Below, piece after piece: positions 18,165-38,631 of a stretch of DNA of 42,417 nt. This DNA is from Betaproteobacteria bacterium. Its GTDB lineage: Bacteria; Pseudomonadota; Gammaproteobacteria; Burkholderiales; SG8-39. The first letter of the stretch is position 1. Every line of letters starts with the position of its first letter. A program made the position numbers and the translations under genes. The DNA lies in the NCBI GenBank assembly GCA_004298325.1, contig SCUF01000175.1, positions 1 to 42,417 of the forward strand. Reading direction: 5' to 3'. Under the pieces are notes generated by a model that was not told the DNA's origin, made no database searches, and was given only the letters and a program-made list of their open reading frames with translations.

Positions 18165-18584
18165 TCAGCCCTCGACGATCTCGAAGTCCTGCGTGACGGC
18201 GGCGGTCTTGGCGAGCATGATCGAGGCCGAGCAGTATTTTTTGTGCGACAGGCGAAGCGCGTTTTCGACCAGGGCCGGCTTGAGGTCGCGTCCGCGAAGG
18301 ATGAAGTGCATGTGGATGCGGGTGAACACCTTGGGATCGGTCGCAGCGCGCTCGGCCTGCAGCCGCACCTCGCAAGCGGTGACCTGTTGCCGGCTGCGCT
18401 TCAGGATCAGCACCACGTCGTAGGCCGTGCAGCCGCCCGTGCCAAGAAGCACCATTTCCATGGGACGCGGCGCGAGGTTGCGCCCGCCGCCCTCCGGGGC
18501 GCCATCCATAGCGGCGAGATGCCCACTTTCCGTTTCGGCCACAAAGGACATGCCGTCACCGCTCCAGCGCACCGTGCATTGCAT
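18165..18584 (-). CDS. OsmC family protein
   Basis: PMEMVLLGTGGCTAYDVVLILKRSRQQVTACEV; ALRLSHKKYCSASIMLAKTA. Confidence 0.9.
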   Translation of the reverse strand: MQCTVRWSGDGMSFVAETESGHLAAMDGAPEGGGRNLAPRPMEMVLLGTGGCTAYDVVLILKRSRQQVTACEVRLQAERAATDPKVFTRIHMHFILRGRDLKPALVENALRLSHKKYCSASIMLAKTAAVTQDFEIVEG

Positions 18585-18708: not shown

Positions 18709-18753
18709 TTTTCGAGCGCTTTTGCTCCGCTGTCGACTGGCCAATTCTAATTA

Positions 18754-18782
18754 TTGCACTGCACCATCTATTGGCGTATGCT
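18754..18782 (+). promoter_or_regulatory. Candidate sigma70 promoter for the sRNA: TTGCAC-17-TATGCT
   Basis: -35 at 18754..18759 and -10 at 18777..18782, with a 17-nt spacer. Confidence 0.6.
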
Positions 18783-18789
18783 GCATTCT

Positions 18790-18860
18790 AGCTTCAATAC
18801 TCTTCCACCCTCCTCCTTTGGTGGATTGGGCGCAGCCCTCGCAGGTTGCGCCTTTTTTTT
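18790..18860 (+). ncRNA. Candidate ~70-nt sRNA with an anti-Shine-Dalgarno loop
   Basis: Sits between the promoter above and a strong terminator. Hairpin 1 TCCACC(18804..18809)/GGTGGA(18820..18825) has loop CTCCTCCTTT. No plausible coding content. Confidence 0.65.
18829..18860 (+). terminator. Intrinsic terminator GGCGCAGCC-CTCGCA-GGTTGCGCC-T8
   Basis: 9-bp stem (one G-U pair), 6-nt loop, then eight T. Confidence 0.85.
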
Positions 18861-18874
18861 GTTCCAACAAGGGT

Positions 18875-18903
18875 TTGACCGTGGTTTCGCAGTGCAATAA
18901 AAT
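18875..18903 (+). promoter_or_regulatory. Sigma70 promoter of rplM-rpsI: TTGACC-17-TAAAAT
   Basis: -35 at 18875..18880 and -10 at 18898..18903; ATG of rplM at 18931. Confidence 0.75.
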
Positions 18904-18930: not shown

Positions 18931-19359
18931 ATGAAAACCTACACGGCCAAGGCCGGCGAAGTAAAGCAGCACTGGTACCTTGTCAACGCCCAAGGCAAGG
19001 TGCTGGGGCGGCTCGCGTCGCAGATTGCCACGCGCTTGCGGGGCAAGCACAAGCCCGAGTACACACCTCACGTGGATACCGGCGACTTCATCGTCGTGGT
19101 CAACGCGGCGCAGGTGCGGGTGACCGGGCGCAAGGCGCTTGACAAGTCCTATGTCCGGCACACGAATTACCCGGGCGGCATCCGGGAAACATCATTCGCC
19201 AAGCTGCAGGTCAGCCATCCGACGCGCGCACTCGAAAAAGCGGTGAAGGGGATGCTGCCCAAAGGGCCTCTCGGCTACGCCATGCTGCGCAAGCTCAAGG
19301 TGTACGCCGGCCAAAGCCATCCGCACTCGGCGCAGCAGCCGACCGCACTGGAGATCTGA
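18931..19359 (+). CDS. rplM: 50S ribosomal protein L13
   Basis: [75 protein letters not shown]. Confidence 0.98.
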
Positions 19360-37230: not shown

Positions 37231-38631
37231 TCAAACGACCTTGCCGGGATTCATCAGCCCCTGCGGATCGAACGTGCGCTTGATGCGGCGCATCAGTTCG
37301 AGTTCGAGCGGCGCCTTGTGGCGCGCCAGTTCCGCGCGCTTCAGCTGCCCGATGCCGTGTTCTGCGGAGATCGAACCGCCGAGCGCGGCCACCGTATCGT
37401 AGACGACGCGGTTGACCTCCTCACGGCGGTCGATCAGCGCCGCCGTCGCGGCCGCGTCCGCCATGCCGACGTTGTAATGCAGGTTGCCGTCGCCGACGTG
37501 GCCGAAGATGAAGCTCTGCACGCCGGGAAAGCGCGCCGCAAGCGCAGCTTCGGCCTGCTCGACCAGCGCCGGAATGCGCGATACCGCAACCGCGACGTCG
37601 TGCTTGACGTTGGCGAATTGCGCCTCGGGAATCGTCTCGCGGATGCGCCAGAGCGCCGCGGCCTGGGACTGGCTCGCGGCGATCGCGGCGTCGCGCAGAT
37701 CGCCGAGCTGCGCGCCCTCGGCCAGGGCGGCTTCCAGTCTCGCCTGCAGCGATTCGAACGTGCCGCTATCCTCCAGCTCGGCGAGCACGTACCAGGGATG
37801 CGGCGCGCCGAGCGGATTTGCCAGCGCAGGGGTATGCACCAGCGCGGCTTGCAGACAGCGGTGCGAAACGAGCTCGAAGGCGCTGATGCATTCGCCGAGT
37901 CTCGCGCGCAGCCGCGCCAGCAATCGCACCGCGCCGAGCGGGCTATCGACGGCGATCCACGCGGTGGCGCTCGCGCTCGGCCTGGGCCGCAACCTGAGCG
38001 CCGCGGCGGTGATCACGCCGAGCGTGCCTTCGGCGCCGAGGAACAGCTGTTTCAGGTCGTAACCGGTATTGTCCTTGCGCAGCGTGCGCAGCCCCTGCCA
38101 GACGCTGCCGTCCGCGAGCACCACCTCGAGTCCGAGCACCTGCTCGCGCGCGTTGCCGTAGCGCAGCACGTTGACGCCGCCGGCGTTGGTCGAGAGGATG
38201 CCGCCCAGCTGGCAGCTGCCTTCGGCCGCGAGCGAGACGGGGAAGCAGCGCCCTGCGGACTCGGCGGCCTGCTGGACCTGCGCCAGCACGCAGCCCGCCT
38301 CCGCAGTGAGCGTGTCGTCGATGGCATCGAGCGCGCGGATCCGATTCATGCGCGCGAGCGACAGCACCAACTCGCGCCGGGCGCCGGTCGGCACCGAGCC
38401 GCCGGCGAGCCCGGTATTGCCGCCCTGCGGCACGATGGCCACGTATTCGCCCGCGCAGAGCTTGATCACCGCGGCGACTTCGGCAGTGCTGGCGGGACGC
38501 ACGACGCATTCCGCAGCGGCGTGAAATTGCCGGCGCCAGTCCGTGAAATAGGCTGCGGTGTCGCGGCCGGCGGTCAATACATTGGCAGCGCCGATGGCTG
38601 CGGCGAGCGCGTCGAGAAAATTCCGGGGCAT
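37231..38631 (-). CDS. FAD-binding oxidase, GlcD/D-2-hydroxyacid dehydrogenase type
   Basis: YVAIVPQGGNTGLAGGSVPTGARRELVLSLARMNRI; LGGILSTNAGGVNVLRYGNAREQVLGLEVVLADG; GHVGDGNLHYNVG; EHGIGQLKRAEL. ATG at 38631. Confidence 0.94.
   Translation of the reverse strand: MPRNFLDALAAAIGAANVLTAGRDTAAYFTDWRRQFHAAAECVVRPASTAEVAAVIKLCAGEYVAIVPQGGNTGLAGGSVPTGARRELVLSLARMNRIRALDAIDDTLTAEAGCVLAQVQQAAESAGRCFPVSLAAEGSCQLGGILSTNAGGVNVLRYGNAREQVLGLEVVLADGSVWQGLRTLRKDNTGYDLKQLFLGAEGTLGVITAAALRLRPRPSASATAWIAVDSPLGAVRLLARLRARLGECISAFELVSHRCLQAALVHTPALANPLGAPHPWYVLAELEDSGTFESLQARLEAALAEGAQLGDLRDAAIAASQSQAAALWRIRETIPEAQFANVKHDVAVAVSRIPALVEQAEAALAARFPGVQSFIFGHVGDGNLHYNVGMADAAATAALIDRREEVNRVVYDTVAALGGSISAEHGIGQLKRAELARHKAPLELELMRRIKRTFDPQGLMNPGKVV

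Follow-up and report, generated by a model that had tools for sequence, protein, structure and literature searches.

A PhaR-type box in the promoters of RF02278 small RNAs suggests their control by carbon storage in Burkholderiales

Results

A diverged member of a known RNA family

The window, i.e. the whole stretch of 42,417 nucleotides that was analysed, carries on its forward strand a two-hairpin sRNA gene (18797-18859) between an osmC-like gene and rplM (Table 1). In cmscan this sequence matches Rfam family RF02278 with 50.5 bits (E = 2e-7), a marginal score given the gathering cut-off of 50 bits, and no other of the 4227 Rfam families searched reaches gathering score in the window. The first-pass annotation had proposed an sRNA gene here, possibly a member of the 'Betaproteobacteria toxic small RNA' family, and the match, the fold, the terminator and the covarying stems bear it out. 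Its sequence readings were also accurate: TTGCAC at 18754-18759, a 17-nt spacer, TATGCT at 18777-18782, CCTCCTTT at 18812-18819 and T8 at 18853-18860. The window encodes a diverged RF02278 copy, a new member of the family and not a new RNA. The CcsR/cuckoo type of alphaproteobacterial anti-Shine-Dalgarno (anti-SD) RNAs was rejected, since RF02278 is the only family matched at gathering score. One copy of RF02278 was found in the window's own genome, which is 88% complete.

Table 1. Features of the sRNA locus and of its surroundings in the window.
Feature	Positions	Strand	Basis
osmC-like gene, conserved upstream neighbour	18165..18584	-	Pfam PF02566; synteny in many relatives
Site of PhaR operator type, TTATTGCACTGCACCAT, which overlaps the -35	18751..18767	+	two mismatches to the R. 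eutropha PhaR motif YTKNTGCRNYGCANMAR (PMC12849132); matrix score 20.8
sRNA promoter, -35 TTGCAC, 17-nt spacer, -10 TATGCT	18754..18782	+	sequence; layout shared with congeners L044 and L046 and with the aligned genus
Predicted transcript, ~70 nt	18790..18860	+	promoter position, terminator and RF02278 match; start position inferred
5' pairing tail, diverged (ATACTCTTCCA versus TGTCTCCTCCA in the family)	18797..18807	+	alignment; last 4 nt inside hairpin 1
Hairpin 1, TCCACC/GGTGGA, with SD-complementary loop CTCCTCCTTT at 18810-18819	18804..18825	+	fold; pairing in 99.6% of cells across 42 relatives
Hairpin 2, intrinsic terminator with T8 (18853-18860)	18828..18860	+	fold and terminator scan; compensatory changes in 6 of 8 pairs
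Separate rplM promoter TTGACC-17-TAAAAT, 3' of the terminator	18875..18903	+	promoter scan; TTGACC and TAAAAT kept by 3 members of the genus
Weaker second PhaR-like site TTCGCAGTGCAATAA within the rplM promoter; function uncertain	18886..18900	+	score 12.7; present in congener G152, not in G151
rplM, ribosomal protein L13, neighbour outside the sRNA unit	18931..19359	+	Pfam PF00572

RNA folding predicts two hairpins (-26.6 kcal/mol, z = -3.8), the second with a stem of 10 pairs (18828-18853) that was also picked up by the terminator scan. Compensatory changes among 42 aligned copies support both stems: 94% of cells are paired, against 33-43% when the stems are slid, and the covariation score is 0.37 against 0.05-0.12. 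The fold agrees with the earlier proposal that hairpin 1 presents a single-stranded SD-complementary loop. Two hallmarks of RF02278 are thus found in the window, namely the CU-rich hairpin-1 loop (CTCCTCCTTT) and the pair of hairpins of which the second is an intrinsic terminator. The third, a 5' tail TGTCTCCTCC complementary to ribosome-binding sites (RBS), is replaced by ATACTCTTCC. We take this as divergence within the family and not as exclusion from it, because 42 of 201 copies lack an intact tail and because score, structure, loop and synteny hold for the window copy.

Two RBS-complementary segments in the family

Sampling of the order found RF02278 in 100 of 150 genomes, as many as nine times in a single one; among the relatives, 27 of 41 have it. 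The consensus core of its copies is TGTCTCCTCCACCCTCCTCCTTTGGTGGATT. Tandem copies also occur: the genome with nine copies (G007, locus L055) has two of them ~380 nt apart. Outside the order, sub-threshold matches of about 29-49 bits were seen in 51 of the 194 genomes of a class-wide sample, and the RF02278 design may reach beyond Betaproteobacteria.

The tail TCTCCTCC is found in 159 of the 201 copies. Tail and loop occur together in 125 copies; 34 have the tail but a loop that lacks CCTCC, 18 only the loop and 24 neither. Polynucleobacter-type copies (L112, L113, L131) retain the tail TCTCCTCC and have lost the SD-complementary loop, which reads ACCCAAACATAGGT. The window's genus is the reverse, since the tails of the window and of two congeners have diverged (ATACTCTTCC, TCTCTTTTCC and TGCTCTTCC) and the loop is intact in all three. 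The first-pass annotation had seen in the loop a mimic of the anti-SD, for CCTCCTTT is identical to what we take to be the 3' tail of 16S rRNA. A search of the window's own assembly, which is itself incomplete, did not turn up the exact tail GGATCACCTCCTTTCT. The single-stranded, SD-complementary character of the loop stands, but its role as the defining feature does not. Among the pairing sites of the family the loop is not the best conserved; copies with the tail but not the loop and copies with the reverse both occur, and therefore the 16S-like loop is one of two RBS-complementary segments and not the signature of RF02278.

A PhaR-type box at the promoter

Judged by consensus, the sRNA promoter is weak (7/12 by our own count) and it is absent from the output of the promoter scanner, but TTGCNN-17-TATNNT is retained in two congeners. 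Its -35 box doubles as a candidate PhaR operator, TTGCACTGCACCA (18754-18766). The two mismatches of the longer site to the Ralstonia eutropha motif lie in the flanks, outside the conserved centre, and the source paper of the motif tolerated up to three mismatches (PMC12849132). Under a matrix built from phasin promoters, this site scores best both in its 3-kb locus and in the whole 42-kb window. A perfect match to the PhaR motif at 37280 falls within a reading frame and was set aside as a probable chance hit. The window's own genome encodes phaR (G000:C317, E = 1e-31), a phasin with boxes and a phaC whose probable start has a box close by. The boxes of the phasin were seen with the published motif; a stricter pattern had passed over them.

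When upstream sequences of sRNA copies were compared side by side, we found a recurrent TTGC-RNY-GCAMMA, and the same element lies roughly 50-180 nt upstream of the relatives' phasin genes, often twice. This element fits the PhaR motif YTKNTGCRNYGCANMAR of R. eutropha (PMC12849132) and the footprinted PhbF site TG[N]TGC[N]3GCAA of Herbaspirillum (PMC3206438). We trained a weight matrix solely on phasin upstream sites, ran it on 155 sRNA loci and called a box at a score of at least 10. Such boxes lie upstream of 53% of the sRNAs, where the remaining sequence of their loci would predict 4.6%. The box tracks phaR, being present in 57 of 80 phaR-positive and 6 of 27 phaR-negative genomes (Fisher p = 1.1e-5, optimistic as the genomes are related), and in 51 of 71 versus 3 of 19 once incomplete genomes are left out. 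Three of the six phaR-negative genomes scoring above 10 are incomplete assemblies. Among rplM-linked copies only, the counts are 42 of 49 phaR-positive and 1 of 7 phaR-negative (p = 3e-4, again optimistic for related genomes). Among named rplM loci, the box precedes rplM in 36 of 44 with the sRNA and in 2 of 34 without it (p = 4e-12, with the same optimism due to relatedness); the box therefore goes with the sRNA, not with rplM.

A TAnnnT follows TTGCNN at exactly 17 nt in 50 of 115 plus-strand boxes, compared with 1.4 per other offset. In these 50, therefore, the box is itself the -35 element. The box was found at 37 of 46 named loci, including those of Paraburkholderia, Herbaspirillum, Undibacterium, Glaciimonas, Cupriavidus gilardii, Limnobacter and Polynucleobacter. 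It is not universal: in phaR-positive genomes, 40 of 120 copies have none within 200 nt. Three loci of Burkholderia sensu stricto (L058, L059, L062) have no box at the rplM-linked copy (score 7.1), and their Paraburkholderia relatives retain it.

Five copies (L271, L277, L284, L290, L292), from five genomes other than the window's and with 33-40 bits, thus below the cut-off, start 1-67 nt beyond the stop codon of a phasin reading frame (Phasin_2). Beside them lie a divergent phaR and, where examined, a downstream acetoacetyl-CoA reductase gene of the phaB type. These copies are possibly 3'-UTR-derived sRNAs of the polyhydroxybutyrate (PHB) cluster.

Discussion

The window element appears to be a gene for a trans-acting double-hairpin sRNA of RF02278. 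The RNA is known and what seems new is its promoter. The PhaR-type box in this promoter and in those of most relatives suggests that carbon storage switches the RNA on. PhaR leaves phasin promoters for the granule surface once PHB granules form. By the same principle, PhaR would bind the TTGC-RNY-GCA site that is also the -35 box and repress the sRNA promoter; in carbon excess PHB granules would form and titrate PhaR off the DNA to their surface, and the sRNA would then be made. Its exposed CU-rich segment would pair with the Shine-Dalgarno regions of a set of mRNAs, probably those for carbon uptake and catabolism, and block their translation. With the 5' tail decayed in the window's genus, pairing there would rely chiefly on the loop of hairpin 1. 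We put the probability of this reading as a whole, an RF02278 sRNA repressed by PhaR, induced by PHB granules and repressing mRNAs at their RBS, at about three in four. At the level of sequence, the regulatory link between PhaR and the sRNA is well supported. Counting against it, in Burkholderia sensu stricto the rplM-linked copy no longer has the box, yet ncS27 rises in glucose medium there. The weak consensus of the window promoter, the box in six phaR-negative genomes and the copies that lack one in phaR-positive genomes count against it as well.

One might instead keep the sRNA and its repression of RBS and assign the TTGC-RNY-GCA box to another regulator, or take it for a mere variant of the -35, so that PHB would have no part. 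The box at the window is a predicted PhaR site, and, besides its disappearance in Burkholderia sensu stricto, it is kept in some phaR-negative genomes. But a -35 element needs only TTGC and the GCAMMA half is conserved as well, and the motif fits footprinted PhaR sites and follows both the presence of phaR and the phasin promoters. We find this alternative unlikely.

Slightly less likely still is that the RNA acts globally, its loop copying the 16S tail to tune overall translation and its adjacency to rplM-rpsI coupling it to ribosome supply. The loop CCTCCTTT and the rplM synteny fit this idea. So do duplex energies with RBS regions in the window, which are -3.9 kcal/mol against -2.6 kcal/mol inside genes, an excess computed with loop and tail over 72 crude window reading frames and too modest to single out targets. 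Yet several rplM-linked copies have lost the loop and retained the tail, many copies lie away from rplM, the promoter carries a candidate operator for carbon storage, and deletion of the related S17 of Bordetella pertussis raised only about 92 genes (PMC11722255).

The gene order osmC(-), sRNA(+), rplM, rpsI is kept in many relatives. The first-pass annotation had drawn from it a link with ribosome status, which we abandon: rplM has its own conserved promoter, many RF02278 copies are away from it, and the distance between the two ranges from 35 to 1020 nt among relatives. The rplM neighbourhood is inherited synteny. The RNA does lie on the same strand directly upstream of rplM and ends in an intrinsic terminator, but the same three observations, together with the conservation of two separate stem-loops instead of an alternative anti-terminator fold, make a cis-acting leader or attenuator setting read-through into the ribosomal operon very improbable, and we rejected it. 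As judged from sequence, the terminator and the rplM promoter would place the element outside the rplM mRNA, of which an L13 autoregulatory leader should be a part.

The closest known RNAs are ncS03, ncS05, ncS27 and ncS62 of Burkholderia cenocepacia, double-hairpin members of RF02278 with CU-rich unpaired stretches (PMC5688073). The window RNA shares with them the two hairpins, the CU-rich RBS-complementary unpaired segments, the intrinsic terminator and a score above the cut-off; it differs in being marginal, in its diverged tail and in the single copy found in its genome. Overexpression of ncS27 slowed growth and its silencing sped it up, and glucose medium raises ncS03, ncS05 and ncS27 4- to 8-fold, with levels also up in biofilm (PMC5688073). 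According to papers that cite its description, the family was named for clone toxicity in E. coli. S17S was not toxic to BL21 in exponential growth, so this toxicity is not universal.

Bordetella S17 depends on Hfq and represses BP2158 by pairing of its Site 1 at the ribosome-binding site, as compensatory mutations showed (PMC11722255). It has its core in common with the window RNA, and the promoters are alike, TTGCAY-17-TA together with a PhaR-type box. At the S17-type loci L006 and L008 the RNA lies beside coq7 with osmC nearby, L008 having in addition a glycosyltransferase gene downstream, and coq7 is near osmC at several further loci. The two RNAs look orthologous, because these neighbourhoods overlap with those of rplM-linked loci in other genomes. 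The promoters of L006 and L008 both contain a PhaR-type box; at L008, TTGCAT-17-TACTAT lies inside the box CTTGCATCGCACAAA, with the hexamers and spacing published for the S17 promoter. There are differences: RNase E cuts S17 from a precursor of 190 nt (PMC11722255), whereas the window RNA is predicted to be a direct transcript of ~70 nt. The tail of S17 (Site 1), which mediates its repression, is intact and that of the window copy is degraded, which counts against the reading proposed here.

The sequence of the operator and its placement at a promoter are those of the PhaR and PhbF regulons of R. eutropha and H. seropedicae. The published sites control PHB genes, and the parts of the sources consulted report no sRNA among them (PMC12849132, PMC3206438). 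We found no connection between RF02278 and PhaR in the open-access literature searched, whose scope means that absence is not proof. The proposed circuit has the logic of the Fur-RyhB type, in which a repressor reading a metabolite state stands over an RBS-pairing sRNA. The signal differs, a storage granule instead of iron.

We consider it probable, if a little less so than the reading of the window itself, that RF02278 is the RNA arm of a PHB granule-sensing PhaR regulon across Burkholderiales, in which granule status would set the level of an RBS-blocking sRNA and so restrain carbon uptake and growth. A PhaR-type operator at most RF02278 promoters supplies a concrete signal, PHB granules, and a regulator, both directly testable. 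If this is true, PhaR is a candidate for the repressor of S17 that was postulated, with no mention of PhaR, from the study of its promoter (PMC11722255), and in some lineages the RNA would have become a 3' product of phasin transcripts. It would also explain why RF02278 RNAs rise in glucose medium and in biofilm, and the PhaR regulon would extend from granule proteins to the post-transcriptional control of carbon metabolism.
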